From Acidovorax sp. 1608163 (lineage in GTDB: Bacteria; Pseudomonadota; Gammaproteobacteria; Burkholderiales; Burkholderiaceae_C): a stretch of DNA of 64,000 bases. Location of the stretch: the NCBI RefSeq assembly GCF_003669015.1, contig NZ_CP033069.1, forward strand, positions 995,001 to 1,059,000, given 5' to 3'. The notes beneath the pieces were generated by a model. It saw only the letters and a list, made by a program, of their open reading frames with translations. It was not told the origin of the DNA and did no database searches. Shown in pieces: positions 13,147 through 29,076 of this stretch (its first letter is position 1; each line of letters begins with the position of its first letter). The position numbers and the translations under genes are program-made.

Positions 13147-13902
13147 GTGCGAGCAGTGTTCGCCATCAAGGCGTGGGCTGCCGTAGCACCTGGCCTGCAA
13201 AATCAAGCGCAATGGTTGCAGTGGGCACAGGCCCCTGCCTGCCCGGTGGGTGTGGCCGAGGTCGATTTGGCCCATGTCCCGCCTATGTCGCGCCGCCGTC
13301 TGGGCCTGTTGGCCAAGATGGCGGTTTCTGTCGCCGATGCGGTATTGCCTTCAGGCCAAGGGGTGGATGTCCCCATGGTCTGGGCTTCGCGTTACGGTGA
13401 TGCTGAAAAAATGATCGCCCTGCTCAAGAGCCAGGCCCAGCAAGAGCCTTTGTCTCCGACCGCCTTTGGGCTGTCTGTGCACAACGGCGTGGGGGCGCAG
13501 TATTCCATTCTGCGGGGTGTGCGTGCCAACGCCGTGTGCGTGGCTTCATCGTATTGCGCCCCTGAGGCCGGGGTGGTGGAGGCGGTGAGCCTGCTGCAAG
13601 AAGAGGGGCGCGAGGTGATGTTGGTCTGTTATGACCAGCCTCTCGCCAGCGAATACGCAGCTTTTCATGATGAGCCCGTGGCTGACTATGCGTGGTCGTT
13701 GCTGCTGGAGCCCTTGCGCTCGGGCTGCGAAGGGTTTGCGCTCCAGGCTTTGGACGCTGATAGCAGTTTTGAGCGCGATAGTTCTGCTGCTGCGCTACCG
13801 CACGGGTTAGATGTCCTTCATTTTTTGTTGCAAGCCCATCGCAAAAACATGGTCTGCTCTCATGCAGCGGGTCAGTGGCTTTGGGAGCGTGTGCATGCTT
13901 GA
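13147..13902 (+). CDS. apeC: Aryl polyene ketosynthase chain-length factor (ApeC-like)
   Basis: This 251-aa protein is a short, incomplete ketosynthase fold (the Ketoacyl-synt_2 type). The family motif VHNGVGAQYSILRG is at residues 111-124, and the region that holds the active cysteine in true ketosynthases reads SSYCAPEAGVVEA (Cys137); the C-terminal half with the catalytic histidines is missing. In characterised aryl polyene systems ApeC is the chain-length partner of the ketosynthase ApeO. The gene uses GTG at 13147 after GAGGGAAAG, is the first gene of the operon, and overlaps the next gene by 8 bases. Confidence 0.85.
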   Translation: MRAVFAIKAWAAVAPGLQNQAQWLQWAQAPACPVGVAEVDLAHVPPMSRRRLGLLAKMAVSVADAVLPSGQGVDVPMVWASRYGDAEKMIALLKSQAQQEPLSPTAFGLSVHNGVGAQYSILRGVRANAVCVASSYCAPEAGVVEAVSLLQEEGREVMLVCYDQPLASEYAAFHDEPVADYAWSLLLEPLRSGCEGFALQALDADSSFERDSSAAALPHGLDVLHFLLQAHRKNMVCSHAAGQWLWERVHA

Positions 13903-14671
13903 ATCGATCAATAGGGTGTGGCGCATTGTGGCCACGGGGTTTTGCTTTTCTGTTTTTGGATTGGGCGGGCTGGTTTTGCGCTGCGTGGTGTGCCCGCTGC
14001 TCACCGTGGTGGTACGCGCGCCAGCGCGCCAGCAGCAGTGGTCGCAAACCATCATCCATTACTGCTTTCGCTGGTTTGTGGCCTTGATGAATGGGGTCGG
14101 TGTCATCTCCTATGAGGTGCATGGCCTGGATCGCTTGAAGCGGCGCGGACTGTTGATCCTCGCCAATCACCCATCGCTGATTGACGTGGTGTTTCTGATT
14201 TCCTTTGTGCGCCATGCCGATTGCATCGTCAAAGCGCAGTTGTCGCGCAACCCCTTCACGCGCGGCCCCATCCGTGCGGCTGGTTTCATCACCAATGGCG
14301 ATGGTGCGGGTTTGCTGGAAGACTGCGTACGGTCACTCAAGGCGGGCAACAACCTCATCGTATTTCCGGAGGGCACGCGCACGCCGCTGAGTGGCCCCGT
14401 CAAGCTGCAGCGTGGCGCAGCCCATGTGGCTGTGAAGGGGCGTGTGGACATCACGCCTGTGCACATCCACAGCAGCTTGCCGATGCTGACCAAAGGAACG
14501 CCATGGTGGAAAGTGCCCGCACGCAAACCCCATTTCACGATCGAGGTCCGTGAAGATATTGAGATTCACGATTTTTGTGCATCGTCTGCCAGCGAAGCAT
14601 TGGCGGCACGCCATGTGACTGAGCATTTGTCAGAACAACTTTTTAAGAGATCAGCCTGTGCCTCAACTTGA
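13895..14671 (+). CDS. 1-acyl-glycerol-3-phosphate-type acyltransferase of the APE cluster
   Basis: The 258-aa membrane-associated acyltransferase (LPLAT/PlsC superfamily) has an N-terminal membrane segment (about 12-38), the catalytic NHPSLID motif (H-x4-D, about residue 90) and FPEGTRT (about 153). It presumably moves an acyl or polyene chain onto a lipid carrier. Its ATG at 13895 lies inside the end of the preceding gene (ATGCTTGA overlap), and its own end overlaps the ACP start. The position corresponds to apeD in described clusters. Confidence 0.88.
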   Translation: MLESINRVWRIVATGFCFSVFGLGGLVLRCVVCPLLTVVVRAPARQQQWSQTIIHYCFRWFVALMNGVGVISYEVHGLDRLKRRGLLILANHPSLIDVVFLISFVRHADCIVKAQLSRNPFTRGPIRAAGFITNGDGAGLLEDCVRSLKAGNNLIVFPEGTRTPLSGPVKLQRGAAHVAVKGRVDITPVHIHSSLPMLTKGTPWWKVPARKPHFTIEVREDIEIHDFCASSASEALAARHVTEHLSEQLFKRSACAST

Positions 14672-14918
14672 GCAAGAGATCAAAGAGATCATCATTTCGT
14701 CCCTGGCGCTGGAAGACATCACCCCAGACGACATTGACCCTGTGGCACCTCTGTTTGTGGAGGGCCTGGGGCTGGATTCCATCGATGCCCTGGAGTTGGG
14801 TCTGGCATTGCAAAAGCGCTACGGGCTGAGCCTGTCCGCCGATTCGGAGCAGACACGCCAGCACTTTGGCAGCGTCCGTTCCCTGGCTGCCTTCGTGGCA
14901 GCCCATCGCGCGCAGTAG
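14658..14918 (+). CDS. apeE: Acyl carrier protein 1 of the APE cluster
   Basis: This 86-aa acyl carrier protein carries the phosphopantetheine arm on Ser41 within GLGLDSIDALEL. The GTG at 14658 overlaps the preceding acyltransferase gene by 14 bases; length and four-helix pattern are normal. In the described pathway two ACPs carry the aryl starter and growing polyene and bind the thioesterase ApeK. The modifying transferase is probably the Sfp-type gene at the end of the operon. Confidence 0.92.
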   Translation: MPQLEQEIKEIIISSLALEDITPDDIDPVAPLFVEGLGLDSIDALELGLALQKRYGLSLSADSEQTRQHFGSVRSLAAFVAAHRAQ

Positions 14919-14970
14919 CCCAGTCCCAGTCTGCGCGAGACAAGCACCACAGTTTTCACGGTTACTGCAT

Positions 14971-15231
14971 ATGAACAAAGAAGCCATTTATGAGCGCATC
15001 GCCTCTATCTTGCAAGAGACTTTCGAGATAGACGCCAGCCGCATCACCCCGGACGCCCGCCTGTACGACGATCTGGACATCGACAGCATCGACGCTGTGG
15101 ATTTGATCGTCCAACTCAAGCCCTGGGTGGGCAAGCGCTTGAATGCCGATGCCTTCAAGGCTGTGCGCACGGTGCAGGACGTGGTGGACGCTTTGCACCA
15201 ATTGGTGAACGAGCCCGCGCCCGCAGCCTGA
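14971..15231 (+). CDS. apeF: Acyl carrier protein 2 of the APE cluster
   Basis: This second 86-aa carrier protein has the attachment serine Ser39 in DLDIDSIDAVDL. It begins at the ATG at 14971, 52 bases after the first ACP, and is clearly a different paralog (the two share little beyond the DSIDA core). Paired divergent ACPs are a hallmark of aryl polyene operons. Confidence 0.92.
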   Translation: MNKEAIYERIASILQETFEIDASRITPDARLYDDLDIDSIDAVDLIVQLKPWVGKRLNADAFKAVRTVQDVVDALHQLVNEPAPAA

Positions 15232-15253
15232 ACGCGACTACGACCTGCGCGCC

Positions 15254-15805
15254 ATGCACAAGCTGGTGACCGCCATGCTGGTGGTGTTGACGGTGTTGTA
15301 CCCACTGGGCGTATACCTGGCCATGGGCCGTGTGGCTCCGCAGTGGCTGGCCGTGCTGCTGGTGCTGCTGGCCGTGCTGCGCGCGGTGGTCACGCGCCAG
15401 CGCTTTTGGTGGGCAGTAGCCTTGGGGGCTGCGGTGCTGGCCCTGGCTGCCTGGTGGCAGGGCGATGCGCTGGCCGTCAAGCTCTACCCGGTGCTGGTCA
15501 ACGCCGTGCTGCTGGTGGTTTTCACGTTCAGCCTGCGCCACCCGCCCTCCGTGGTGGAGCGACTGGCCCGGCTCACCGAACCTGGCCTTTCGACCTCGGG
15601 CGTGCGCTACACGCGCAAGGTGACGGTGGTGTGGTGTGTGTTCTTTGTGCTTAACGGCGCCGCCGCTGCCTATACCGCCACCTTCAGCAGCGACGCCACC
15701 TGGGCCCTGTACAACGGTCTCATCGCCTACATATTGATGGGCTGCCTGATGGGCACTGAGTGGTGCATACGGCAATGGGTGAGGCGCCGCGAAGCCATGG
15801 CCTGA
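15254..15805 (+). CDS. APE-cluster inner-membrane protein (COG4648 type)
   Basis: The 183-aa protein has five or so hydrophobic segments (about 5-25, 30-48, 55-70, 80-98, 125-140 and 155-172) and the signature FSLRHPPSVVERLARLTEPG, which is conserved among membrane proteins found in aryl polyene operons (ApeG position). I know no biochemical function. It sits between the ACPs and the AMP-ligase gene and is likely part of the inner-membrane assembly or export machinery. Confidence 0.8.
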   Translation: MHKLVTAMLVVLTVLYPLGVYLAMGRVAPQWLAVLLVLLAVLRAVVTRQRFWWAVALGAAVLALAAWWQGDALAVKLYPVLVNAVLLVVFTFSLRHPPSVVERLARLTEPGLSTSGVRYTRKVTVVWCVFFVLNGAAAAYTATFSSDATWALYNGLIAYILMGCLMGTEWCIRQWVRRREAMA

Positions 15806-15863
15806 TCCAGAAAAACTGCTTTCCCTGTTCCAACAACTCCAAGAATCCAGGAATCGAGCAAAG

Positions 15864-17576
15864 GTGAATACTTTCTCAGCATTGTCCGAAGTGGCACTGC
15901 CGCAGTCGCGTGCGGCCACGCATGCGGTGGCGGCCGTGGGCGGGCGCACGGTATCGCATGCAGACTGGCTGCACAGCGTGCAGGCCTGGTGCGCAGCCTT
16001 CCAGAAGGTGCCGGGCACCGAGGTGGGCCTGTATTTTGACGACCCACTGTCCTTTGCGGCAGCGCTGTGGGGCGCCTGGCACGCGGGCAAGACGCCAGTG
16101 CTCGCCAGCGACCTGCAACCACACACCTTGGCACACCTGCTGCCCCAGGTGCAGGCGTGTGCGGGCCTGCTGCCGGACGCTGTGCTGCCGGACGGCGCTG
16201 GCGCCGCAGCCGTGGTGCTGCAGCCTCTGTCGTTGCGTGATGCGCGGGTGGTGATGTTCACTTCTGGCTCTACAGGCGCCCCTGAGCGCATTGCAAAGCA
16301 CCTCTCTCAGCTGGATGCCGAAGTGCATGCCCTGCAGGCCGTGTTCGGCGCCCTGGCCGATGCGCCTGGCCTGCGCACGCTGGCCACGGTGTCGCACCAG
16401 CACATCTATGGCTTGTTGTTCCGTGTGCTGTGGCCGCTGGCCGCAGGCCGTCTGCTGGGCACTGACTTCTTGCGCTACCCCGAAGAACTGGTGGCGCAGC
16501 TGTCCGTGCCTGGGCCTGCGTTGCTGATTTCGAGCCCGGCCATGCTCAGTCGCCTGCCGGACCATCTGGACTGGGCGGCCGCGTCGCAAGGGCTGCGCGG
16601 CATTTTTTCGTCGGGCGGCCCTTTGCCTCCCGATGCGTCAGCGCAGAGCCTGGCCTTGTTCGGGCACTCGCCCACCGAGGTGTTTGGTAGCTCTGAGACC
16701 GGCGGCATTGCCTGGCGGCGCAGGGCTGAGCAGGGCGATGCCTGGCAGCCCCTGCCGGGCGTCCAGGTGCGCCTGGCCGACAGTGGCTGCCTCTTCGTGC
16801 GCTCGGGCCACTTACCCGATGCAGCGGTGTGGTGGGAGACTGCCGACCGTGCTCTGCCGCAGGACGGTGGTACAGGCTTTGTGCTGCAGGGCCGGGCTGA
16901 CCGGATCGTGAAGATCGCGGAGAAACGCATTTCCCTGACGGCCATGGAAAACGCTCTGTTGGCCAGTGGATGGGCGACCGCAGTCAAAGCGGTGGTGCTT
17001 GAGTTGCCTCACTCTGCGGCCCGTGTGGGTATGGTGCTGGAGCTCAATGACGCGGGCTGGCTGGTCCTGCAGCAGCAGGGGCGCAGGCAGATGGGCGCTG
17101 CGCTGCGCAGCTTGCTCGAGCCCTGTGTGGACCGCGTGGCGCTGCCGCGCAGCTGGCGCTACGTGGCACGTCTACCGCAAAACGCGCAAGGCAAGACCAC
17201 GCAGCATGACCTGCTGGAGCTGTTTCGCCCGCTGATGCCGCCGCCCCAATGGCTGCAGCGCAGTGCGCACCAGGCGACGGCCAGTTTGCGGGTGGATGCG
17301 CAACTGCGCGTGCTGGATGGACATTTTCCTGGCGCCCCCATCGTGCCAGGCGTGGCGCAACTGCACTGGGTTGTGGCGCTGGGCATGCAGGCTTTTGGCA
17401 TCCCTTCGGCTTTTTTGCGGGCCGAGGTGGTCAAGTTCCAGCAACCCATCCTGCCCGGTGACACCGTGCAGGTCCAATTGCAATGGGTGGCTGACAAAGG
17501 GAGCTTGCAGTTTGCCTTGACCTCTGAGCGCGGATCGCATGCCAGCGGGCGACTGGTACACGGGGTGCAGGCATGA
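15864..17576 (+). CDS. apeH: Fusion of aryl-activating AMP-ligase (ApeH-like) and hotdog dehydratase (ApeI-like)
   Basis: Residues 1-450 of this 570-aa protein form an adenylating enzyme: MFTSGSTGAPE (131-141), VFGSSETGGIAW (273-284), GRADRIVKIAEKRISL and the C-terminal lysine in LPQNAQGKTTQ (437-447). It should activate the aromatic starter acid and load it on an ACP. Residues about 460-570 are a FabZ/FabA-type hotdog domain with LDGHFPGAPIVPGVAQL (484-500, His487), matching the dehydratase ApeI that is a separate protein in characterised systems. Start is GTG at 15864. The end overlaps the next gene by ATGA. No frameshift or internal start is needed. Confidence 0.88.
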   Translation: MNTFSALSEVALPQSRAATHAVAAVGGRTVSHADWLHSVQAWCAAFQKVPGTEVGLYFDDPLSFAAALWGAWHAGKTPVLASDLQPHTLAHLLPQVQACAGLLPDAVLPDGAGAAAVVLQPLSLRDARVVMFTSGSTGAPERIAKHLSQLDAEVHALQAVFGALADAPGLRTLATVSHQHIYGLLFRVLWPLAAGRLLGTDFLRYPEELVAQLSVPGPALLISSPAMLSRLPDHLDWAAASQGLRGIFSSGGPLPPDASAQSLALFGHSPTEVFGSSETGGIAWRRRAEQGDAWQPLPGVQVRLADSGCLFVRSGHLPDAAVWWETADRALPQDGGTGFVLQGRADRIVKIAEKRISLTAMENALLASGWATAVKAVVLELPHSAARVGMVLELNDAGWLVLQQQGRRQMGAALRSLLEPCVDRVALPRSWRYVARLPQNAQGKTTQHDLLELFRPLMPPPQWLQRSAHQATASLRVDAQLRVLDGHFPGAPIVPGVAQLHWVVALGMQAFGIPSAFLRAEVVKFQQPILPGDTVQVQLQWVADKGSLQFALTSERGSHASGRLVHGVQA

Positions 17577-18349
17577 CCGTGCCCAGGTTCAACCCGGTGG
17601 CCATCATCCCGGTCTACAACCACCCCACCACCATTGGCCGCATGGTGCAGGGCGTGCTGGACGCTGGCCTGCACTGCATCCTTGTGGACGACGGCTCCGA
17701 GCCCGGCTGTGCTGCGGTATTGGACGCGCTGGGTGTGCAGCATGGGGCCTTGGTCACGGTGCTGCGACTGGTGCACAACCAGGGCAAAGGGGGCGCCGTG
17801 ATGACGGGGATGCGCCATGCGCTGGCAGCTGGCTACAGCCATGTGCTGCAGATCGACGCTGATGGGCAGCACGCCGTAGCCGACATCCCCGAATTCATTG
17901 CGTTGGCCCGAGCCCAGCCTGACGCCATGGTGTGTGGTGCGCCACGCTATGACGCCAGCGTGCCCAAAGCACGCCTGTATGGCCGCTATGCCACCCATGT
18001 GTGGGTGTGGATCAACACCTTGTCGCTGGACATCGAAGATTCGATGTGCGGCTTTCGTGTCTACCCGCTGCGCGACGCGATTGGCGTGATGGACGGCGCC
18101 CGCATTGGCAAGCACATGGAGTTCGATACGGAGATCCTTGTCCGCATGCACTGGAAGGGCGTGCCTTTCATCACGCAGCGCACGGCTGTGACCTACCCGC
18201 AGGATGGTTTGTCGCACTTTCGCGTGTGGCGCGACAACGTGCTCATCTCGGGCATGCACACCCGCCTGTTTGGCGGGATGCTGCTGCGCAGCCCTGTTTT
18301 GCTCGCACGCAAGCTGTTGGGGCGTTCCCGTCGCAGGTCGGTGGCATGA
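17573..18349 (+). CDS. Family 2 glycosyltransferase of the APE cluster
   Basis: The 258-aa protein has the GT2 fold with nucleotide-binding IIPVYNHPTTIGRMVQ (residues 10-25), LVDDGS, QGKGGAVMTGM and the catalytic-site DADGQH. It should transfer a sugar during attachment of the polyene to its carrier. In the E. coli-type cluster the glycosyltransferase and an acyltransferase occur, as I recall, as one two-domain protein; here they are two genes coupled by an ATGA overlap. Confidence 0.88.
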   Translation: MTVPRFNPVAIIPVYNHPTTIGRMVQGVLDAGLHCILVDDGSEPGCAAVLDALGVQHGALVTVLRLVHNQGKGGAVMTGMRHALAAGYSHVLQIDADGQHAVADIPEFIALARAQPDAMVCGAPRYDASVPKARLYGRYATHVWVWINTLSLDIEDSMCGFRVYPLRDAIGVMDGARIGKHMEFDTEILVRMHWKGVPFITQRTAVTYPQDGLSHFRVWRDNVLISGMHTRLFGGMLLRSPVLLARKLLGRSRRRSVA

Positions 18350-19344
18350 CGGCACGCGCACCTCGGGCCCAAGCCACGACGCAGGATGTCACCTCGCAAG
18401 AGGTGCCGCACTGGGCGCATTTGGGGGAAAGCACCTTTGTGGCTGGCATGTGGCTGCTGTACCAGGTGCACCGGTTTCTGGGTCGCTGGCCGTTCCTGGC
18501 GTGTTTGTACCCTGTTGTGGCGTACTACTGGCTGGCCAAGCCGGTAGCACGCCGCGCCTCCTTGCAGTATCTGCAGCGCATGCAGGCGGCCCATGGCTTG
18601 TGGCCTGCGGTGCCGGGCTGGCGGCAGAGTCTGCAGCACTTTCGGGTGTTTGCGCAGGTGATTTTGGACAAGCTGTTGGCGCTCACCGGGCGTTACCGGT
18701 TCGAGCGCGTGGCTTTCGTTGGGGGTGAGTCGCTCGATGCTCTGCTGGCGCAGGGGCGAGGGGCGGTGGTGGTTACCGCGCACATGGGCTGCATCGAGCT
18801 GTGCCGCGCCATGGCTGAACGGCGTGAGGGGCTGCGGCTCAACGTTCTGGTGCACACGGCCCATGCCCAGCGCTTCAATCGGCTGATGCAGCGCCTGGCG
18901 CCGGACAGCGGAGTGCAATTGTTGCAGGTCACTGAATTCAACGCGGCCACCGCCATCATGCTGGCCGAGCGCGTGGCGCGTGGCGAGCTCATTGCCATTG
19001 CGGGCGACCGTGTTCCTGTGCACGAGAGCCGTGTCACGCACGCCCCGTTCCTGGGGCATGAGGCCCCTTTCCCTTGTGGTCCTTACATCCTGGCGGCGGT
19101 GCTTGAATGTCCGCTCTACTTCATGGGCTGCGTGCACGAAGGCGAGGGCTATGCCGTGGAGTTTGTGCCGCTGGCCGACCGCGTGCAGCTACCGCGGGCC
19201 CGGCGCGAGCAGGCCATTGCCGAGTACGCATCCCTCTACGCCCAGCAGCTCGAGCGCATGCTGTGCAAGGCGCCCTACGACTGGTTTAACTTTTTCCCCT
19301 TCTGGGAGCAAGGCGTGGCTGCGCGTCCTGCTTCCACTGCTTGA
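18346..19344 (+). CDS. LpxL/HtrB-type lipid acyltransferase of the APE cluster
   Basis: The 332-aa protein has one N-terminal membrane segment (about 50-72) and the lysophospholipid/lipid A acyltransferase motif VVVTAHMGCIEL (H-x4-E/L type), followed by IAIAGDRVPV and the C-terminal YDWFNFFPFW. It likely acylates the glycosylated carrier. The ATG at 18346 overlaps the glycosyltransferase stop (ATGA). Other upstream starts in the frame would overlap the glycosyltransferase gene by over 300 bases and were rejected. Confidence 0.86.
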   Translation: MTARAPRAQATTQDVTSQEVPHWAHLGESTFVAGMWLLYQVHRFLGRWPFLACLYPVVAYYWLAKPVARRASLQYLQRMQAAHGLWPAVPGWRQSLQHFRVFAQVILDKLLALTGRYRFERVAFVGGESLDALLAQGRGAVVVTAHMGCIELCRAMAERREGLRLNVLVHTAHAQRFNRLMQRLAPDSGVQLLQVTEFNAATAIMLAERVARGELIAIAGDRVPVHESRVTHAPFLGHEAPFPCGPYILAAVLECPLYFMGCVHEGEGYAVEFVPLADRVQLPRARREQAIAEYASLYAQQLERMLCKAPYDWFNFFPFWEQGVAARPASTA

Positions 19345-19412: not shown

Positions 19413-19853
19413 ATGCCGACTGACAAAGAGCTGGCATCGCGCGATCGGCTGACTTGCGAGATCGACATCACACCGGCGTTTTACGACATCGACGTGATGG
19501 AGATCGTGTACCACGGCCACTACGTGCGTTACCTGGAGCTGGCGCGCAGCGCGTTGCTGGCGCAGTTCAACTACGACTACCCGCGCATGCGCGATTCGGG
19601 CTACGCATGGCCTGTCGTGGACATGCGCCTCAAGTATGTGCGCCCGGCCACCTTTGGCCAGACGCTCAAGGTGCGTGCCACCATCACCGAGTGGGAGAAC
19701 CGCCTGCGCATCGACTATCTGCTGCGTGACGCTGCAACGGGCCACAAGGTCAACAGTGCACACACCATCCAGGTGGCGGTGGATATGCAGACACGTGCCA
19801 TGTGCTTCGTCTGCCCGCCTGTGTTGTGGGAACGGTTGGGGGTGGCACCATGA
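19413..19853 (+). CDS. apeK: Hotdog-fold thioesterase (ApeK-like)
   Basis: The 146-aa protein is a 4HBT/YbgC-type thioesterase. The active-site region FYDIDVMEIVYHGHYVRYLELAR matches the family pattern in which the Asp in YDID.M acts in hydrolysis. In the reconstituted aryl polyene system ApeK binds the two ACPs. The ATG at 19413 follows a 68-base gap, the largest in this part of the operon; the end overlaps the LolA-like gene by ATGA. Confidence 0.88.
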   Translation: MPTDKELASRDRLTCEIDITPAFYDIDVMEIVYHGHYVRYLELARSALLAQFNYDYPRMRDSGYAWPVVDMRLKYVRPATFGQTLKVRATITEWENRLRIDYLLRDAATGHKVNSAHTIQVAVDMQTRAMCFVCPPVLWERLGVAP

Positions 19854-20479
19854 GGTTCTCTGCATGGTGGTGGGCTATGGCACTGTGTGCGTTGGCGCTT
19901 GCTCCGGTGCATGCGGCAGAGCCTGCCGCGCAGGAGCTGCTTGCCCAGGTGCGCCAGCGTGTGCAGGACGCCCCTGTCGTGCGTGGCACCTTCGAGCAGC
20001 TCAAGACCGTCAAGGGCTTCAAGCAGCCACTTCGGTCCAGCGGCGATTTTGTTGTGGCGCGTGGCAGAGGCATCGTCTGGCATGTGCTGCGGCCGTATGA
20101 ATCGCTGCTGGTCGTCAAACCTGACAGCCTGCAGTCGCGCGGCAGCGACGGCAAGGTGACCATGCAGATGCGGGCGCAGGATGAGCCGGTGCTGCGCACC
20201 GTCAATGCCATGCTGTTCGCCGTGATGTCGGCCAACCTGGCAGAACTCACCCAGCACTTTGAGGTGACGGGGCAGGTGGCGGCCAAGGGGTGGTCGCTGC
20301 ACCTCGTACCCCGCGATCCCACACTGGCCCAGTGGCTTGCTGCCGTAGATCTGCAAGGCAACCAGTTCGTGCAAGAGGTCAAGCTGCAGGAGGCGCGTGG
20401 CGACAGCAGCGTGATTCGCATCACGGCCCCCGTGGCAGAAAACGCCTTGCGCCCGCAGGATGCGGCGCAGTTTGACTGA
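19850..20479 (+). CDS. LolA-like outer-membrane lipoprotein carrier of the APE cluster
   Basis: The 209-aa protein begins with a Sec signal peptide (about 1-20, cleavage after VHAAE) and shows the LolA fold pattern VRGTFEQLKTVKGFKQPLRS and GRGIVWHVLRPYESLLVVKPD. It probably carries the lipid-linked polyene across the periplasm together with the MMPL exporter that follows. The position matches apeL in described clusters. Confidence 0.88.
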   Translation: MRFSAWWWAMALCALALAPVHAAEPAAQELLAQVRQRVQDAPVVRGTFEQLKTVKGFKQPLRSSGDFVVARGRGIVWHVLRPYESLLVVKPDSLQSRGSDGKVTMQMRAQDEPVLRTVNAMLFAVMSANLAELTQHFEVTGQVAAKGWSLHLVPRDPTLAQWLAAVDLQGNQFVQEVKLQEARGDSSVIRITAPVAENALRPQDAAQFD

Positions 20480-20494
20480 GGGTGGCGTAGCGCA

Positions 20495-22867
20495 ATGCTT
20501 GTGAATTCCATGTCCCCCCAAGACGCCCAGCCAGGCTGGCTGTGGCGCACGGCGGCACTGGCCTGGCTGTTGGTGACCATCGCCGTGGGCGTGCACCAAT
20601 GGCAGTTCTGGAAGCATGACGGCATTGACACCGACGTGATGGCCCTCTTGCCTGTGAACGAGCAGGCACCCGACGTGGCCCTGGCCACCGAGCAACTGGT
20701 GGGGCAGATGTCCCGCCAGGTGGTGGTGTTGCTGGGCACAGGCGAGTGGAACGAGACGCGCTCGGCTGCGCAAGTGTTCCGCCAGTCGCTGGGTGCGGGG
20801 GCTGGCGCGCTCCTGCGGGAAGACGCCATGGCGCAGAAGACCTCCATAGATGCCGCGCTCGGCTTCTACCAGCCCTGGCGCGATCGCCTGCTCACGCCCG
20901 AGCAGCGCGCCATGCTGGCGGGTACGTCCGATGCCGCACTGGTGCAAAAAGCGCTGCAGGACTTGTACCAGCCTGCTGTGCAGGCCCGCCTGTCCGATTG
21001 GGTGAGCGACCCCCTGGGCTTGTGGACACAGTGGTGGACTGCGCGCGGCGCGCAAAGCCAAGCGCGGCCACGCGACGGCGAGCTGTGGGTGGCGGCTGGC
21101 GGATTGCAGTGGTCGGTCCTGCAGTACACGCTGGAGGGCTCGGCCTTTCGCCTTTCGGGCGAGCCGGTACTGGGCAATGCGCTGCAACAGGCGCTGGCCA
21201 ATGTGCAGGCGAAGTGGCCTGGCGCCCGCATGGTCGTGGCCGGCGTGCCCCTGCACGCTGAAGCAGCGGCTGTGCAGGCCAACCGCGAGATCAACACCAT
21301 CGGCTGGGGCTCTCTTGCTGGCGTGCTGCTGCTGGCTTGGCTGGCCTTCCGTTCGCTGCGGCCGGTGGCGCTGGTCGGTGTTTCGCTGCTGGTGGGCTGC
21401 GCGGTGGCGCTGTCGGTCACGGCGCTGTTCTTCGCGCAGGTGCACCTGTTGACCTTGGTATTTGGTGCCAGCCTGGTGGGTGTGGCGGAAGACTATGGCA
21501 TCCACTACTTTGCCAGCCGCCAGGGGGCGCCCGGACGCAGCCCGCATGGGCTCATGCGGGGGCTGATGCCAGCGCTGTGGCTGGCTTTGGGCACCAGCGC
21601 CATCGCCTATCTGGCATTGGGCGCTGCAGCCTTTCCGGGCTTGCGGCAGATGGCGGTTTTCTCGGTGGTGGGGCTCACTGCGGCCATGCTCACCGTGGTC
21701 TGCTGGTTCCCTTGGCTGGACCGGGGCAGCATGCCGCACAGCCCTGTGGCCCAGCGCATTGGCCAGACGCTGATGGCTTGGCCGCGCTGGCGCCATGCGC
21801 TGCCTGGCTCTGTGGCTGCCTGCTCGGTACTGGTGCTGCTCCTTTGGTTGCTGGGTGGCCTGCGCGTGCAGGATGACGTGCGCCAGTTGCAGAACGCCTC
21901 CACCCCTCTGGTGGCGCAGCAGCGCCAAGTGAGCGAGATCCTGGGCCTGCCCAGCCCTGCGCAGTTCTATCTGGTGCAGGGCAAGACGCCGGAACAGGTG
22001 CTGCAGCGAGAAGAGGAACTCAAAGATCGGCTCGACGCGCTGGTGGCGCGCCAGGTGCTGGCGGGTTACAGCGCCGTGTCAGATTGGGTTCCATCGGCCC
22101 GGCGCCAGGACGGCGATGCACAGTTGGTGGCCCGTGCCCAGACCGCCGTGTTCAAGGGGGTGAGCACGGCGTTGGGCGAAGACTTCGCGCTGGTTGGCCG
22201 CCCTGCATCTGCACCACTCACGGTGCAGGCCTGGCTGGCGCAGCCCATTTCGGCAGCCGCGCGGCCGTTGTGGCTGGGCGAGCGTGATGGCAGCTACCGC
22301 AGCCTGCTCATGCTGCGAGGTGTGAAGGGTGTCGAGGCGCTGCCCGTTTTGGAAGGCGCCGTGCAGGGCCTGGAAGGCGTGGCTTGGGTGGACAAGCCGG
22401 CCGAGATATCGGGCCTGCTGCAGCGCTACCGTATCTCCATGACCGAGTTGCTGCTGTTGGGACACGCACTGGTGCTGGCAGCTCTGTGGCTGCGCTTTGG
22501 CCGCAAGGCCTGGCGCGCCTGGATGCCCACGGTGCTCGCCAGCTTGGTGGTGGTGGGTGCACTGACGGCCACGGGTGCGCCCTGGCAGCTGTTCAACGTG
22601 CTGGCGCTCATGTTGCTGCTGGGCGTGGGCATCGACTACGGCATCTTCCTGCAGGAGCATGAAGACGACCCCCATGCCTGGCTTGCTGTGGTGATTGGCG
22701 CGGGCAGCACCTGGTTGTCTTTTGGTCTGCTCGGTCTGTCACAAACCCCCGCACTCAGGGCCTTCGGCCTGACGTTGATGTTGGGCTTGCCGCTGGTGTT
22801 GGTGCTAGCGCCCTTGTTTCGGGCGGGCATGGGCGATACGAACGACAAGAAAGTGGGGGCGAAATGA
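20495..22867 (+). CDS. MMPL/RND-type exporter of the APE cluster
   Basis: The 790-aa inner-membrane exporter has about twelve membrane segments in two halves, each preceded by a periplasmic domain. TM1 is at about 15-32; TM2-6 lie near 265-425 with GASLVGVAEDYGIHYFASR, and TM8-12 near 645-780 with LLLGVGIDYGIFLQEHEDD, the repeated family motifs that hold proton-relay acidic residues. Location between a LolA-like carrier and a lipoprotein points to export of the lipid-linked polyene. Confidence 0.9.
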   Translation: MLVNSMSPQDAQPGWLWRTAALAWLLVTIAVGVHQWQFWKHDGIDTDVMALLPVNEQAPDVALATEQLVGQMSRQVVVLLGTGEWNETRSAAQVFRQSLGAGAGALLREDAMAQKTSIDAALGFYQPWRDRLLTPEQRAMLAGTSDAALVQKALQDLYQPAVQARLSDWVSDPLGLWTQWWTARGAQSQARPRDGELWVAAGGLQWSVLQYTLEGSAFRLSGEPVLGNALQQALANVQAKWPGARMVVAGVPLHAEAAAVQANREINTIGWGSLAGVLLLAWLAFRSLRPVALVGVSLLVGCAVALSVTALFFAQVHLLTLVFGASLVGVAEDYGIHYFASRQGAPGRSPHGLMRGLMPALWLALGTSAIAYLALGAAAFPGLRQMAVFSVVGLTAAMLTVVCWFPWLDRGSMPHSPVAQRIGQTLMAWPRWRHALPGSVAACSVLVLLLWLLGGLRVQDDVRQLQNASTPLVAQQRQVSEILGLPSPAQFYLVQGKTPEQVLQREEELKDRLDALVARQVLAGYSAVSDWVPSARRQDGDAQLVARAQTAVFKGVSTALGEDFALVGRPASAPLTVQAWLAQPISAAARPLWLGERDGSYRSLLMLRGVKGVEALPVLEGAVQGLEGVAWVDKPAEISGLLQRYRISMTELLLLGHALVLAALWLRFGRKAWRAWMPTVLASLVVVGALTATGAPWQLFNVLALMLLLGVGIDYGIFLQEHEDDPHAWLAVVIGAGSTWLSFGLLGLSQTPALRAFGLTLMLGLPLVLVLAPLFRAGMGDTNDKKVGAK

Positions 22868-23496
22868 TGCGCCAGCGAGAACGAGTTGACAGCCCCGACC
22901 GATTGGTGGCGAGGGCATGCGTGCCGTTGCTGGCCTTTGCGATGGCATTGCTGGCGGGCTGTGCCTTGCCGGGTGGCCCATCGGCTGGCGCAACCCACCC
23001 ACCGTTGCTGGCGCTGGCACCCGCTGCCCTGGGCTGCACCGTGGGCGTACAGCAGCGGTTGACAGTCCAGCGCCCAGGCCAGCCTGCGCAGCAATTGGAA
23101 GCCTTGTTGGAGGTGGATGGGCAGGCTGTGCGCCTGGCCTTCTTCGTGATGGGGCAGGGCATGGGCACCATGGCCTGGGACGGCCTGCAGTGGGATACAC
23201 AGCTTTCGCGCCACTGGCCTGCGCAGTTGACGCCTGAGCAAGTGCTCAGTGATCTGCAACTGGCTTTCTGGCCCACGCCGGTGGTACAGCAGGCTGTGGC
23301 GGCAATGGGGGCACCATGGCAATTGGAAAGCTCTGCCACTGGCCGTCGCCTGCTGCGTGATGGCAAGGAGTATGTGCGCGTGCAATTTGTGGAGAGTTCG
23401 GCGGTGGAGATCGTTTACCCCCAGGGCCCTTTCACTTTGCGGGTGGAGTCTCCTGGGGGCCCCCAACTGTGCGCTACTGCGCAGGAGCCGGTTTGA
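22864..23496 (+). CDS. DUF3261-type lipoprotein of the APE cluster
   Basis: The 210-aa protein has a lipoprotein signal with lipobox LLAGC (Cys at about residue 37), so it should be a periplasm-facing lipoprotein. The rest matches the small lipoprotein found after the exporter in aryl polyene operons (RLAFFVMGQGMGTMAWDGLQ and EYVRVQFVESSAVEIVYPQG). Function is unknown. It overlaps the exporter gene by ATGA and the ketosynthase gene by one base. Confidence 0.82.
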   Translation: MMRQRERVDSPDRLVARACVPLLAFAMALLAGCALPGGPSAGATHPPLLALAPAALGCTVGVQQRLTVQRPGQPAQQLEALLEVDGQAVRLAFFVMGQGMGTMAWDGLQWDTQLSRHWPAQLTPEQVLSDLQLAFWPTPVVQQAVAAMGAPWQLESSATGRRLLRDGKEYVRVQFVESSAVEIVYPQGPFTLRVESPGGPQLCATAQEPV

Positions 23497-24695
23497 TGTC
23501 CGCCACCACGCCCGTCTATCTGAACGCAGCATCGGCTTACAGCGCATTGGGGGTCGATGCCGAATCCATGCGTGCCCACCTGTTTGCGGACGCCGATCCC
23601 CAGACCTTGCGGTGGACAGACCAATACTCGCCGGGCCGTGTATTGCCCTTGGGGTGCTTGCCTGAGGGTGTTGAGCTGCCTGCACTGGACTTTGCACCGG
23701 CGCATCAGCGCTCTCGCAACAACGCGTTGGCCTGGGGGGCTCTGCACGCTTTGCAAGGTGCGGTCGCGCAGGCCATTGCACGTTTTGGTCCCACACGCGT
23801 AGCGCTCGTCGTGGGCACCAGTGCGGCCGGCATTGAAGAGGGTGAAGCCGCCGCCCGCTGCTTGTTCAATGAAGGGCGGTTCCCTCCTGGTTTTTCCTAC
23901 CCTTTGCAAGAGATGGGGAACGTGGCTGAATTTTTGGCGCAGCACCTGGGTGTGCGTGGGCCAGCCCATACCATTTCTACCGCCTGTTCTTCTGGGGCCA
24001 AGGCGCTGGCGTCTGCCGCGCGGTTGCTGCGGGCGGGCATGGCTGATGCCGTGGTAGCTGGTGGCGTGGACGCGTTGGGCCGCTTTACCCTGGCGGGTTT
24101 CAGTGCGCTGGAGGCTGTTTCGGTCAAGCGCTGTAACCCTCTGTCCGTGCACCGCAATGGCATCAATCTGGGTGAGGCAGCGGCCTTCTTTGTCCTGAGC
24201 CGTGAGGCCGGGCCTGTCCGTTTGGCAGGCTGGGGCGAGTCGCAAGACGCGCACCATATGTCCGCCCCTGATCCCACGGGCCAAGGGGCTGCGGCTGCCA
24301 TGCGGCAGGCACTCGCACGCGCGGGTCTGGAGCCCGCTGACGTGGACTACGTCAATCTGCACGGTACGGCCACGCCGCACAACGACGCCATGGAAAGCCA
24401 TGCCGTGCACGCAGTGTTGGGCAATGGCGTGGCGGTCAGTTCCACCAAACCGCTCACGGGGCACGCTTTGGCGGCAGCCGGCGCGCTGGAGGCGGCCGTG
24501 GCTTGGCATGTGCTGCACAACAACCCGCAGGGCGTGCTGCCCGTGCATTGGTGGGATGGCATGGCCGACCCGGACGTACCCTCTCTGGCGCCTGTTGTAC
24601 CCGGTCTGCGGTTAGGGCGCCCCGTTCGTGCCGTGATGAGCAATTCTTTTGCCTTTGGCGGCAGCAACAGCGCTCTGTTGTTCACAGCCGCCTGA
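23496..24695 (+). CDS. apeO: Beta-ketoacyl synthase (ApeO-like)
   Basis: This 399-aa protein is a complete type II ketosynthase with the catalytic set Cys164 (TISTACSSGAKAL), His289 (NLHGTATPHND), Lys318 and His323 (STKPLTGHALAAAGA). It should be the elongating enzyme that pairs with the truncated chain-length factor at the start of the operon. It is joined by one-base overlaps to the genes on both sides, so translation is coupled. Confidence 0.9.
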   Translation: MSATTPVYLNAASAYSALGVDAESMRAHLFADADPQTLRWTDQYSPGRVLPLGCLPEGVELPALDFAPAHQRSRNNALAWGALHALQGAVAQAIARFGPTRVALVVGTSAAGIEEGEAAARCLFNEGRFPPGFSYPLQEMGNVAEFLAQHLGVRGPAHTISTACSSGAKALASAARLLRAGMADAVVAGGVDALGRFTLAGFSALEAVSVKRCNPLSVHRNGINLGEAAAFFVLSREAGPVRLAGWGESQDAHHMSAPDPTGQGAAAAMRQALARAGLEPADVDYVNLHGTATPHNDAMESHAVHAVLGNGVAVSSTKPLTGHALAAAGALEAAVAWHVLHNNPQGVLPVHWWDGMADPDVPSLAPVVPGLRLGRPVRAVMSNSFAFGGSNSALLFTAA

Positions 24696-25183
24696 TGAGT
24701 GATGACAACGTGATGAGCAGCGAATTTCTTCCCATCGAAAACTACGTACCCCACCGCGGCGTCATGCTGCTGCTGGACCGCCTGGTTGCCGCAGACGAGG
24801 ACACGGCTGTGGCCGAGGTGACCGTGCCACGCGACGGTTTGTTTTTGCAGGACGCAGGCATGCCCTCTTGGGTCGGCATGGAATACATGGCACAGACAGT
24901 GGCCGCCTGGGCGGGCTGGCGCGCGCGGCAAAAAGGGCAAGCGGTCAAGATTGGCTTTTTGCTGGGCTCGCGCCGGTACGAGGCAGTGCAGCCCTTTTTT
25001 GCACCGGGTCAGCGCCTTAGGGTCAGTGTGCGCTGCGAGTTGCTGGGCGACAACGGCCTGGGCATGTTCGATTGCCGCATTCATGCAGACGGTGACGTGG
25101 AGCTGGCCAGTGCGCGCGTTTCGGTCTTTGAGCCCGAAGACGGTGGCGCCTACATTGCCGCTGCGCCAGCGGCAAGTTCCTGA
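24695..25183 (+). CDS. apeP: Hotdog-fold 3-hydroxyacyl-ACP dehydratase (ApeP-like)
   Basis: The 162-aa protein has the segments YVPHRGVMLLLDRLVAA and MPSWVGMEYMAQTVAAWAGW, matching the ApeP dehydratase, which forms a complex with ApeI. In this cluster the ApeI partner is a domain of the AMP-ligase fusion, so the complex would tie loading to dehydration. The ATG at 24695 overlaps the ketosynthase stop. Confidence 0.87.
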   Translation: MSDDNVMSSEFLPIENYVPHRGVMLLLDRLVAADEDTAVAEVTVPRDGLFLQDAGMPSWVGMEYMAQTVAAWAGWRARQKGQAVKIGFLLGSRRYEAVQPFFAPGQRLRVSVRCELLGDNGLGMFDCRIHADGDVELASARVSVFEPEDGGAYIAAAPAASS

Positions 25184-25325
25184 GAGATCCAGTGGGCGAA
25201 GACTTTGCCTGGAGATTGGGCCGCTCATTGTGCAAGGGTTACGCCAATGCCCAGCTGCACACATCGGGCATCCAGCAACACACTAAAAATCGCCATCCAG
25301 GAGATGGGCAGTAGATGGACGGTAG

Positions 25326-26105
25326 ATGGACCAAAGAATGAATGATCTGACACACACAACGACACCTACGTCGGCTTCGGACACCACCGTGCTGGTGACG
25401 GGGTCCAGCCGAGGCATTGGGCGCGCGATTGCGCTGCGTCTGGCGCGGGCGGGCCACAACATCGTGGTGCATTGCCGCAGTGGCATGGATTTGGCCCAGA
25501 GCGCCGTGGCCGAAATTGAGGCCCTGGGCCGCAGCGCACGCGTGCTGCAGTTTGATGTGGCCGATCGCGCCGCCTGCGCGGCCGCACTGGAGGCCGACAT
25601 GCAGGCCCATGGGGCCTACTACGGCGTGGTCTGCAACGCCGGCATTGCTATGGACAACGCCTTCCCCGCCATGACCGGCGAGGAATGGGACCGCGTGGTG
25701 CACACCAACCTCGACGCCTTCTACAACGTGCTGCATCCCGTGGTCATGCCCATGGTGCGCCGACGCAGGCCGGGGCGCATCGTTACCTTGGCCTCGGTCT
25801 CGGCGCTCATGGGCAACCGTGGGCAGGCCAACTACAGCGCTGCCAAGGCGGGTGTGATTGGTGCGACCAAGTCGTTGGCCATCGAGCTGGCCAAGCGCAA
25901 TATCACCGTCAACTGCGTGGCCCCTGGCTTGATTGACACCGAAATGGTCAGCGAAGAGGTGCTGGAGCATGCGCTGGAGTTGATTCCCATGCGCCGCATG
26001 GGCACCGTGGATGAGGTCGCTGGCGTGGTCGCCTTCCTCATGGGTGCAGAGGCTTCGTACGTGACGCGCCAGGTGATTTCGGTGAACGGAGGTATGGTCG
26101 GATGA
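25326..26105 (+). CDS. apeQ: 3-ketoacyl-ACP reductase (ApeQ-like, FabG family)
   Basis: The 259-aa short-chain dehydrogenase has the NADPH motif TGSSRGIGRA (residues 26-35), the NAG segment, and the catalytic Ser/Tyr/Lys with YSAAKAG. It should reduce the 3-keto intermediate on each elongation cycle. It starts at ATG 25326; an ATG at 25338 in the same frame is possible. A 142-base gap separates it from the dehydratase gene, the longest spacing in the operon. Its end overlaps the second ketosynthase by ATGA. Confidence 0.9.
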   Translation: MDQRMNDLTHTTTPTSASDTTVLVTGSSRGIGRAIALRLARAGHNIVVHCRSGMDLAQSAVAEIEALGRSARVLQFDVADRAACAAALEADMQAHGAYYGVVCNAGIAMDNAFPAMTGEEWDRVVHTNLDAFYNVLHPVVMPMVRRRRPGRIVTLASVSALMGNRGQANYSAAKAGVIGATKSLAIELAKRNITVNCVAPGLIDTEMVSEEVLEHALELIPMRRMGTVDEVAGVVAFLMGAEASYVTRQVISVNGGMVG

Positions 26106-27358
26106 ACGCTTCCCCTGGAACTACCAAGCGCCGTGTGGTCGTCACCGGCATCGGTGCGTTGAGCCCGTTGGGCAACGATTGGGCCACGGTACGCAGCCAC
26201 CTGCTGAGCGGTCGCAATGCCATCCGCGTGATGCATGAATGGGCTGACTATGAAGGCCTGAGCACCCAGCTGGGCAGCACGGTGGCTCCCTTTGAGCTGC
26301 CCGCGCACTACAACCGCAAGACCATGCGCAGCATGGGGCGTGTGGCGTTGATGGCCACGCGTGCCACAGAGCTGGCCCTGGAGAGCGCGGGTTTGTTGGG
26401 GGACCCCTTCGTCAAGAGCGGGCAGATGGGGGTTTCCTACGGTTCCTCCGCCGGCACGCCCGCTGCCATTGGCGACTTCGGGCGCATGATGGCCGAGAAA
26501 AGCACCGAAGGCATCAACGCCAACACCTACATCAAGATGATGTCTCACACGGCGCCAGTGAACATCGGCGTGTTCTTTGGCACCACGGGCCGCATCATCA
26601 CCACGTCCAGCGCCTGTACGTCGGGCAGCCAGGGCTTGGGTTACGCCTACGAGGCCATTCAAAGCGGCAAACAACTCGCGATGCTGGCAGGCGGTGCCGA
26701 AGAATTGGATGCGACGCAGGCTGCCGTGTTCGACACCCTGTTTGCCACCAGCACCAAGAACGGCACGCCCGAGCTGACCCCACGCCCCTTCGATGTGGGC
26801 CGTGATGGCCTGGTGCTGGGGGAGGGCGCATGCACCTTTGTCCTGGAAGAACTCTCGCACGCCCAGGCGCGTGGCGCGAACATTCTGGCCGAGATCATTG
26901 GTTTCGCCTCCAACTCCGATGGCACCCACGTCACCCACCCCAACCCCATCACCATGGCCCAGGCCATGCGCATGGCTTTGGACGATGCGGGCTTGCCCCC
27001 TGAGGCCATTGGCTACATCAACGCCCACGGCACTGCCACGGACCAGGGCGACATTGCGGAGACCCATGCCACCCATGCCGTGTTTGGCGATGCGGTGCCT
27101 GTGAGCACGCTCAAGGGCTACATGGGCCACACCCTGGGGGCCTGCGGCGCGCTGGAGGCCTGGATGACGCTGGAGATGATGCGTGAAGGCTGGTTCGCAC
27201 ACAACGCGAACCTGGTCGAGCCAGACCCGCGCTGCGGCGCTGTGGACTTCATCATGGGTAAAGCGCGTCCGTTGCATACCGAAGTGGTGATGAGCAACAA
27301 CTTCGCCTTTGGCGGTATCAATACCTCTTTAATCTTCAAACGATGGAGCCATCAGTAA
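26102..27358 (+). CDS. apeR: Beta-ketoacyl synthase (ApeR-like)
   Basis: This second complete ketosynthase, 418 aa, has Cys172 (TTSSACTSGSQGLGY), His309 (NAHGTATDQGD), Lys338 and His343 (TLKGYMGHTLGACGA). In described systems ApeR is a homodimeric ketosynthase that works beside the ApeO-ApeC pair. It shows more FabF-like sequence than the first ketosynthase. It is followed at once by a small secreted-protein gene. Confidence 0.9.
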   Translation: MNASPGTTKRRVVVTGIGALSPLGNDWATVRSHLLSGRNAIRVMHEWADYEGLSTQLGSTVAPFELPAHYNRKTMRSMGRVALMATRATELALESAGLLGDPFVKSGQMGVSYGSSAGTPAAIGDFGRMMAEKSTEGINANTYIKMMSHTAPVNIGVFFGTTGRIITTSSACTSGSQGLGYAYEAIQSGKQLAMLAGGAEELDATQAAVFDTLFATSTKNGTPELTPRPFDVGRDGLVLGEGACTFVLEELSHAQARGANILAEIIGFASNSDGTHVTHPNPITMAQAMRMALDDAGLPPEAIGYINAHGTATDQGDIAETHATHAVFGDAVPVSTLKGYMGHTLGACGALEAWMTLEMMREGWFAHNANLVEPDPRCGAVDFIMGKARPLHTEVVMSNNFAFGGINTSLIFKRWSHQ

Positions 27359-27766
27359 ATGAAATCTATGCGCAAAGTGGGATGGACGGGTGCCTTGCTC
27401 CTGGCGCTTGCGATGTCCAGCGGCGCCGCAGTGGCGCGCACGGCAGACCTCTACGAACCCCCCAGAGTTTTGACGGTGGGTAGCCAGGCTACAGATTTGC
27501 AACACAGCCGTGATCGCATCATTGCTGCGGGCCAATCCCTTGGGTGGGCCGTGGTGCGAGAGACCCCCGAACTGCTGGAGTTGCAATACGACAAGCAGGG
27601 CAAGCACCAGGTCACTGTCTCCGTCACCTATGACACTTCGGGCTACCTGGTTCGGTATGTCACGAGCACCAACCTCAATTACGCCGAAGTGGATGGGCAG
27701 CGCAAAATTCACCCCAACTACAACCGTTGGGTTCGGAACTTGATCAAACAAATTGGTGGGCAGTAA
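27359..27766 (+). CDS. Small secreted protein of the APE operon, unknown function
   Basis: The 135-aa protein has a cleavable Sec signal peptide (about 1-27, ending AAVA-R). The mature part, with RDRIIAAGQSLGWAVVRET and VTVSVTYDTSGYLVRYV, looks like a small alpha/beta periplasmic domain. It begins immediately at the end of the ApeR-like gene (start at 27359 after the stop at 27356-27358), so it is cotranscribed. I do not recognise a named family. Confidence 0.8.
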   Translation: MKSMRKVGWTGALLLALAMSSGAAVARTADLYEPPRVLTVGSQATDLQHSRDRIIAAGQSLGWAVVRETPELLELQYDKQGKHQVTVSVTYDTSGYLVRYVTSTNLNYAEVDGQRKIHPNYNRWVRNLIKQIGGQ

Positions 27767-27851
27767 AGCACCCATTGGCTGAGCTGCTTTGCAGACCGGG
27801 AATCGTCCCTAAAAACGCAACAGGTCTTCTGTGAAAGGCCGGGAGAGAAAA

Positions 27852-28286
27852 ATGAAAAAAGCGATTGTTTTGCTGGCGACCCTCACGGCCATGGGCTTGG
27901 TCCATGCCCGTGACGAAGTGATCACATTGCCCCTGGATGAAGTGGTGCGATTGGGGGTTGAACAAGGCAAGTTGGACGGTAGCGTGGCGTTCCACCTGTC
28001 CGGTGCGAACACCCCCAAGGTGGTCGCCCGTCTGGGTGAGGATGTCTCCAACAAGAAGACCAATAGTGTGGGCAAGGACACTGCCACCGCTTGCAAATGG
28101 GCTGCACTGTCTGCCTTGATGGCGTTCCAGCAATCGGCCAAGGAAAAGGGTGCCAACGCTGTGGTGGACATGCACAGCTTCTACAAGCGCAATGCGGTGA
28201 AGGACCCGGTGACCTTCCAGTGCCACGATGGCAACATCGTGACTGGCGTGGCCCTCAAGGGAACCTACGCAAACATCGCGAAATAA
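27852..28286 (+). CDS. Small secreted protein of the APE operon, wrongly called excinuclease subunit in some genomes
   Basis: The 144-aa protein starts at the ATG at 27852 (GGGAGAG upstream) and has a signal peptide ending VHA-RD. The core KLGEDVSN-type segment (here RLGEDVSNKKTNSVGKD) and CKWAALSALMAFQQSAKEKG, GANAVVDMHSFYKRN recur in proteins beside aryl polyene genes; I recall that databases label relatives as excinuclease ATPase subunits, which the sequence does not support. Two cysteines (CKWAA, FQCHDG) may form a disulfide in the periplasm. Confidence 0.8.
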   Translation: MKKAIVLLATLTAMGLVHARDEVITLPLDEVVRLGVEQGKLDGSVAFHLSGANTPKVVARLGEDVSNKKTNSVGKDTATACKWAALSALMAFQQSAKEKGANAVVDMHSFYKRNAVKDPVTFQCHDGNIVTGVALKGTYANIAK

Positions 28287-28305
28287 CCCGGCGCTGAGGA
28301 CGGCG

Positions 28306-29076
28306 ATGGAGTTGGAGCCCGGTCTTCGGCTGCTGCTGGCCCCGCAGGCCTTGATGGGGGGCGCGGCGCAGCAGCTAGAGCCTGGGTGGCTGACTGCAAG
28401 CGAGTTGGCTCGCGCCGCGGCCATGCGCCAGCCTGGCCGTCACCACGAATTCATGGCGTGTCGCTATGCCCTGCGCCACCTGCTCGCTCTGGTCTATGGC
28501 CATGCAAGCAGCACTTGGCGGCTCGATGCTCCTGAGGGAAAACCGCCCCGGCTCAACACTGCGGTGCATGGGGCCGTGCTGGCTGCAAACACCCACTTGT
28601 CTTTGTCACATAGCGCTTCCCTGCTGGCTTGTGCGGCCTTTCGCCAGCCTGTGGGGGTGGATGTGGAAGTGGTGGATGCACGCGCGGGCAAGCGCGACGT
28701 GCTGGCATTGGCTGGCTTGGCCTGTACCGATGAAGAGATGCGCCAATTGAGCGCCATGGCGATGGGGCCGCAGCAGCGCCTGTTGTTTCTGCAGTGGTGG
28801 ACGCTCAAGGAGTCGTACTTCAAATGCACTGAAACGGGGGTAGACTTTTCACGCATACGCCGCATTGAGTGCCGTCCTGCGAATGCGGTGCCGGGATCTG
28901 GGCAGCTGCTGGCGCGGGCGCAATCCTGGGTTGGCAGCACACCCGCTGGTGAAGATGTCGTGCTGTCTGTGTGCACATTGGACAGCGCATTGCCCGCTGC
29001 CCAAATTCAAAACTGCGCGGAGATTGCCTGGCGCCAAGAAACCGAGTGGATGCTGGTCGAGTTGCCGAGCACCTGA
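28306..29076 (+). CDS. 4'-phosphopantetheinyl transferase (Sfp type)
   Basis: The 256-aa enzyme transfers the phosphopantetheine arm of coenzyme A to the serine of carrier proteins. The two signature blocks are present: PVGVDVEVVDARAG (about residues 118-131, metal-binding Asp/Glu) and WWTLKESYFKCTETG (about 165-179). Its position as last gene of the operon, 19 bases after the preceding gene, suggests it activates the two ACPs of this cluster. Confidence 0.9.
   Translation: MELEPGLRLLLAPQALMGGAAQQLEPGWLTASELARAAAMRQPGRHHEFMACRYALRHLLALVYGHASSTWRLDAPEGKPPRLNTAVHGAVLAANTHLSLSHSASLLACAAFRQPVGVDVEVVDARAGKRDVLALAGLACTDEEMRQLSAMAMGPQQRLLFLQWWTLKESYFKCTETGVDFSRIRRIECRPANAVPGSGQLLARAQSWVGSTPAGEDVVLSVCTLDSALPAAQIQNCAEIAWRQETEWMLVELPST

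Follow-up and report, generated by a model that had tools for sequence, protein, structure and literature searches.

A 64,000-nucleotide stretch of the Acidovorax sp. 1608163 genome (NZ_CP033069.1, positions 995,001 to 1,059,000; hereafter the window, in whose numbering all unprefixed coordinates are given) carries 19 genes on its plus strand between 13147 and 29076, which we delimited from open reading frames and profile scans and read as an aryl polyene (APE) operon. Aryl polyenes are yellow, membrane-bound pigments and are very common in bacteria. The genes run in the order ApeC, D, E, F, G, an ApeH-ApeI fusion, ApeJ as two genes, K to R, an ApeA homologue, a gene termed Y and a phosphopantetheinyl transferase, and all 19 frames are open. 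An initial annotation, made from the letters alone, had counted some 19 same-strand genes here, as we do. It described ATGA or single-base overlaps at most of the junctions, which is about half right: nine of the 18 junctions overlap (apeM and apeN by four bases) and one abuts, counts that depend on the start codons chosen. The genes are as follows.

13147..13902, +, ApeC, chain-length factor (half-size ketosynthase): PF13723 at 173 bits; structure matches 6QSP_B and 7F28_A, no others; 30% to E. coli ApeC over 171 aa
13895..14671, +, ApeD, lysophospholipid-type acyltransferase: PF01553; 40% to E. coli ApeD
14658..14918, +, ApeE, acyl carrier protein (ACP): NF006617 above cut-off; 68% to E. coli ApeE; DSI motif
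14971..15231, +, ApeF, ACP: NF003757 above cut-off; 51% to E. coli ApeF
15254..15805, +, ApeG, membrane-type protein: 50% to E. coli ApeG over 105 aa; no Pfam or NCBIfam match
15864..17576, +, ApeH-ApeI fusion, acyl-ACP ligase and dehydratase subunit, 570 aa: PF00501 and PF22818 (ApeI-like) above cut-off; ApeI part matches 3ESI (uncharacterised) first, then 6QSR_A, with FabZ-type enzymes weaker
17573..18349, +, ApeJ, glycosyltransferase part: PF00535; 54% to the N-terminal half of E. coli ApeJ
18340..19344, +, ApeJ, acyltransferase part: PF03279; 38% to the C-terminal half of E. coli ApeJ
19413..19853, +, ApeK, thioesterase: PF13279; 55% to E. coli ApeK
19850..20479, +, ApeL, LolA-like carrier: PF19574 and PF03548; 30% to E. 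coli ApeL
20495..22867, +, ApeM, exporter of the resistance-nodulation-division (RND)/MMPL type: 30% to E. coli ApeM over 788 aa; HpnN-like match below cut-off; no Pfam match
22864..23496, +, ApeN, DUF3261: PF11659 at 89 bits; 26% to E. coli ApeN, E 0.003
23496..24695, +, ApeO, elongating ketosynthase: NF006618 at 460.7 bits; top structure matches 7F28_B and 6QSP_A; 45% to E. coli ApeO
24692..25183, +, ApeP, dehydratase subunit: PF22817 (ApeP-like) above cut-off; 6QSR_B the sole structure match
25326..26105, +, ApeQ, ketoreductase: TIGR01831 above cut-off; 60% to E. coli ApeQ
26102..27358, +, ApeR, FabB-like ketosynthase: NF006587 at 680.5 bits; top structure matches 4EWG and 7F27; 60% to E. 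coli ApeR
27359..27766, +, ApeA homologue: 31% to E. coli ApeA over 128 aa, E 8e-16
27831..28286, +, gene Y, probably exported, DUF74 (YbjQ)-like fold (see below)
28306..29076, +, phosphopantetheinyl transferase: PF01648 above cut-off; HetI-like at 56.7 bits, below cut-off

The Pfam and NCBIfam scan returned the expected families for the operon proteins, save for ApeG, ApeA and gene Y (no match), ApeM (RND-type NCBIfam matches only, below cut-off, HpnN at 82.9 bits) and ApeN (DUF3261 only). Features by which APE clusters are recognized are present: a ketosynthase paired with a half-size chain-length factor (ApeO:ApeC), the ApeI:ApeP dehydratase pair (PF22818 and PF22817 above cut-off; chains A and B of 6QSR), a second, FabB-like ketosynthase (ApeR), a dedicated acyl-ACP ligase with two ACPs, and genes for lipid attachment and Lol/RND export (ApeD, J, L, M and N). 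Key residues of the ketosynthases, ACPs and AMP-ligase had been described as intact, and a motif check confirmed this. ApeO carries Cys164-His289-His323 and ApeR Cys172-His309-His343, both ACPs have DSI, the ligase has TSGSTG and a C-terminal GKT, and GHFPG and YSAAK are found in the ApeI part and ApeQ; we presume these residues to be catalytic. Of the matched structures, we take 6QSP and 6QSR (Xenorhabdus) and 7F27 and 7F28 (Acinetobacter baumannii ApeR and ApeO-ApeC) to be published APE proteins. The consulted sections of PMC8358021 term 4EWG an ApeR homologue and describe Tyr135 and Phe202 of A. baumannii ApeR as stacking the aryl group; in our alignment Tyr143 and Phe210 of the window ApeR correspond to them. 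The window thus has the ketosynthase, chain-length factor and dehydratase types of the A. baumannii and Xenorhabdus proteins and the aryl-stacking residues of A. baumannii ApeR, although the sequences are distant and its ApeI unit, unlike theirs, is fused to the ligase.

For comparison with the window, we fetched the proteins of the E. coli CFT073 cluster (c1204-c1186, apeA-apeR) by coordinates. Seventeen of the 18 Ape proteins have a counterpart, the methyltransferase ApeB alone being without one, and apeC to apeR lie in the same order. The weakest counterparts are ApeN (E 0.003), the ApeI part (E 8e-12) and ApeA (E 8e-16). Together with APE-type proteins among the closest structures, these matches support the aryl polyene product class predicted by the initial annotation. 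The window differs from CFT073 in that ApeA stands at the opposite end of the operon, ApeH and ApeI are fused, ApeJ is split, and a phosphopantetheinyl transferase of its own and gene Y are added. The annotated gene set was right in what it named, apart from the layout of three activities: the dehydratase placed after the AMP-ligase as its own gene makes up the C-terminal domain of a 570-aa protein shared with the ligase, and the glycosyltransferase and acyltransferase activities, correctly recognized, belong to two genes. It had left out ApeG (15254-15805) and ApeA (27359-27766, after ApeR), of which the former is listed as COG4648 in the CFT073 gene table, in the part of PMC8253772 consulted, where ApeN is LolB-like. 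Calling the operon complete calls for qualification, there being no methyltransferase, ammonia-lyase or halogenase-like gene. ApeB of the E. coli/Xenorhabdus type, which we treat as optional, is absent from the operon (the genome outside it was not searched) and has no match in five same-genus stretches with at least 2.2 kb upstream of apeC.

An ApeO scan of named genomes yielded 63 loci for comparison. These reach at most 10 kb upstream of apeO, so the absence of C to G from them carries no meaning; ApeB was matched in L013 only, with most loci stopping short of the apeC side. ApeH and ApeI are fused in 39 of the 40 loci where both parts were found (L050 is the exception; 23 of the 63 were not assessable), and the two ApeJ parts occupy separate frames in all 57 loci that could be assessed for this (six could not). 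Gene order deviates in L043 and L045, and L064 is similar in its ketosynthases only. ApeC-side stretches of five same-genus genomes show C to J in the same order (L114 stops within J). Closest to the window are seven Acidovorax-type clusters (L002-L006, L008 and the same-genus L115), which agree with it in gene order, H-I fusion, split J, ApeA and the transferase, and are 85-88% identical to it over concatenated M, O, P, Q and R. Clusters of nearly identical gene order occur in Acidovorax, Diaphorobacter and Comamonas, in keeping with the betaproteobacterial origin proposed initially. Gene Y was found in all of the seven except L006. In contrast to the window, all seven carry a halogenase-like gene after apeM, and their fetched flanks are unlike those of the window.

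That additional gene encodes a flavin adenine dinucleotide (FAD) enzyme some 400-430 aa long (incomplete in L055) and sits between apeM and apeO in 58 of the 63 loci, more exactly between apeM and apeN in the 14 nearest loci with apeN detected; L013, L043, L045, L050 and L064 are without it. All 58 proteins contain W-x-W-x-I-P, which we take to be the flavin-dependent halogenase signature, and the L008 protein matches Pfam Trp_halogenase and FAD_binding_3, with CmlS below cut-off. Judged from these motifs and profiles, the gene is flavin-dependent-halogenase-like, and its product may be a monooxygenase. In L013 (Burkholderiaceae), an ApeB-like methyltransferase (8233-9339 of that locus) lies between apeM and apeN, the place of the halogenase-like gene in relatives. 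The window cluster has no such gene, and its genome has only partial matches of 27-29%. A 25-tip tree built from M, O, P, Q and R (the window, 23 of 64 clusters and E. coli) places the window as sister to the seven Acidovorax-type clusters; the eight together have support 100, the seven by themselves 99, and L007 lies next outside (support 81). Since the seven sisters and L007 all carry the halogenase-like gene, its simplest history is a single loss on the window branch. A tyrosine-ammonia-lyase-like gene lies between apeJ and apeK in 40 of the 63 loci; it is absent from the window and the seven Acidovorax-type clusters, and also from those Achromobacter loci that show the apeJ-apeK interval. 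We do not claim the distribution of these two genes across clusters as new.

From the genes alone, the operon very probably encodes an aryl polyene pathway. What our analysis itself shows is the gene set, the residues, the homology, the location and the absent genes. The enzyme roles and the protective effect given here come from published work on relatives, and the consulted sections of PMC8253772 and PMC8358021 support the assignment of roles; the product, the starter acid and its source in this strain we infer. ApeH, fused to ApeI, would load an aromatic acid onto an ACP (ApeE/ApeF) armed by the co-encoded phosphopantetheinyl transferase. ApeR and the ApeO:ApeC pair would extend the chain with malonyl units, ApeQ would reduce it, and the pair of ApeI domain and ApeP would dehydrate it to a conjugated polyene. 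Release by ApeK and attachment to a lipid by ApeD and the ApeJ pair would follow, after which ApeL, ApeM and ApeN would carry the product to the outer membrane, where it would protect against oxidation. Because the operon has neither ApeB nor a halogenase-like gene, we predict a hydroxyphenyl head group that carries no methyl and no halogen.

Several results weigh against this interpretation, most of them touching the supply of the starter acid. A sigma-70-type promoter scan of 12900-29500 found none where 2.4 were expected, which is weak evidence; a terminator scan (20 versus 14.3) was not used as evidence. In E. coli, 4-hydroxybenzoate is supplied by UbiC, as stated in the consulted part of PMC8253772. 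UbiC (PF04345) has no match in the window genome; nor does the chorismatase model PF21168, and the sole PF00221 protein lies above the HutH cut-off (664.4 against 539.15 bits) and is 35% identical to the L007 ammonia-lyase. PF04345 was found in none of 40 genomes of the genus, the window genome included, and in 93 of 150 sampled genomes of the order, with the sample's four genomes of the family lacking it; PF21168 was found in 15 of the 150, so the model works there. The genome does encode a 4-hydroxybenzoate octaprenyltransferase (L135:7844-8830; TIGR01474 at 308.1 bits, cut-off 275.45), which implies that 4-hydroxybenzoate should be made or taken up. No chorismate lyase was seen in the open frames scanned near that gene (nine with Pfam and five with NCBIfam, not every frame). 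Another candidate ubiA, L113:8489-9382, was rejected, its protein being above the cut-off for heme O synthase (CtaB), with a fitting SCO1/SenC neighbour. A diverged UbiC beneath these models, or an unrelated enzyme, is a possible source of 4-hydroxybenzoate.

With the starter of the window operon not established, the product might not be a plain aryl polyene of the E. coli type; it might be a xanthomonadin- or flexirubin-type relative, with a 3-hydroxybenzoyl or coumaroyl starter, ring decoration or a resorcinol linkage. The nearest clusters do have halogenase-like genes, ammonia-lyase-like genes occur further out, and ApeL (LolA) and the ketoreductase give flexirubin-model matches below cut-off. 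Xanthomonadin-type clusters of Lysobacter and Xanthomonas share the ketosynthase with half-size partner and the polyene chemistry, but the PF21168 chorismatase-type gene, which we take to be XanB2, was not found in the window genome, which also has no close halogenase-like gene. The lack of a halogenase has parallels: the consulted portion of PMC3691225 reports the enzyme missing also in Lysobacter enzymogenes and Xylella, so that a halogenase is not universal in such clusters. The cluster itself holds no halogenase, ammonia-lyase or chorismatase gene; a HutH is the only candidate tyrosine ammonia-lyase in the genome, and the 19 operon genes include no resorcinol-forming type (resorcinol genes were looked for in the operon only). 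Such a product is unlikely on this evidence. Loss of the halogenase-like gene on the window branch, absence of the ammonia-lyase gene from the clade and the lack of a recognized starter source would fit a decaying relic, stripped of starter-supply and tailoring genes and making no pigment. Yet 19 of 19 frames are open, the examined motifs are intact, the five concatenated proteins are 85-88% identical to those of the seven sister clusters, and the octaprenyltransferase implies that the cell has 4-hydroxybenzoate, which together make decay very improbable. A role in fatty-acid synthesis hardly deserves credence, even though the ketosynthases and the ketoreductase belong to fatty-acid superfamilies: ApeO scores 460.7 bits with NF006618 against 204.4 with fabF, ApeR 680.5 with NF006587 against 338.4, the chain-length factor is half-size, the dehydratases are of the ApeI/ApeP type, and other ketosynthase-family genes lie elsewhere in the genome. 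Placement of the ketosynthases in fatty-acid or other clades, named initially as grounds for abandoning the assignment, was examined on profile scores and structure matches, not by a FabF/FabB tree, and the outcome did not overturn the assignment.

An EamA gene stands on one side of the operon and a tRNA-Arg gene on the other. PF13723 is above cut-off in seven of 40 genomes of the genus, the window genome included. For the site comparison we used G033, G034 and G035 (ranks 1, 2 and 4 of 29 relatives with the EamA locus; rank 3, G001, was not fetched). These lack PF13723 and keep EamA and tRNA-Arg(CCT) about 1.95, 10.0 and 0.5 kb apart, respectively, with no match to operon DNA in the interval. 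In G034 the interval (L111:7911-17910) holds about 10 kb of other DNA. The interval looks like an insertion hot spot. Among relatives that have the operon, fetched flanks of limited length (five upstream, ten downstream) do not match the window, and in G015 a single contig carries both the operon and EamA, with over 2 Mb between them. Given the empty or different sites, the unlike flanks and the G015 separation, the operon was probably gained by or moved into the window site; the alternative is that the whole operon was lost here in the three relatives. An IS200-like (Y1_Tnp) transposase-type gene (10944-11480) lies upstream of the site; in each of the three relatives, the alignment covers the DNA on either side of this gene and does not run across it.

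Between the operon and the tRNA gene lies a 5.07-kb integrase/phage remnant (29144-34236) with an identical 26-bp repeat at both ends.

29144..29169, no strand, 26-bp copy of the tRNA-Arg 3' end, identical to 34211-34236, between operon and integrase remnant
30120-31259, tyrosine integrase, in remnant
31223-31477, excisionase-like frame, in remnant
31701-32753, methyltransferase-like frame, in remnant
32734-33057, portal-protein C-terminal fragment, in remnant
34211..34285, -, tRNA-Arg (CCT), which anchors the variable site and is shared by all three compared relatives

Only two copies of the repeat occur in the window with up to three mismatches allowed. With no third on the EamA side of the operon, the tRNA repeat accounts for the remnant and not for insertion of the operon. 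A plasmid origin was also rejected: matches came from three of 72,556 plasmid records, with coverage below 80% in each.

Gene Y (27831-28286) is present in 46 of the 63 loci and follows the apeR region in many APE clusters. Its product has two invariant cysteines and is probably exported, with a DUF74 (YbjQ)-like fold, YbjQ being presumably the family of 1VR4 and 1Y2I. A search of its profile against PDB sequences gave engineered proteins and Numb only, at E 0.003 or worse, which we do not believe. Further Y-like frames lie beside gene Y in L003, L004, L005 and L008. The consulted portions of PMC8253772, PMC8358021 and PMC3691225 describe no role for it. A tentative and on balance doubtful proposal is that the genus makes 4-hydroxybenzoate, for ubiquinone and pigment, by neither UbiC nor a XanB2-type enzyme, and that gene Y is an undescribed exported APE part with a DUF74/RcsF-like fold, acting at the envelope.

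The operon adds one more ordinary member to a very well-known family, and the local detail it offers is useful. The gap in the starter source is a testable question, the sister clusters with and without the halogenase-like gene form a natural pair for working out the role of that gene, and gene Y can be added to the candidate components of APE systems.

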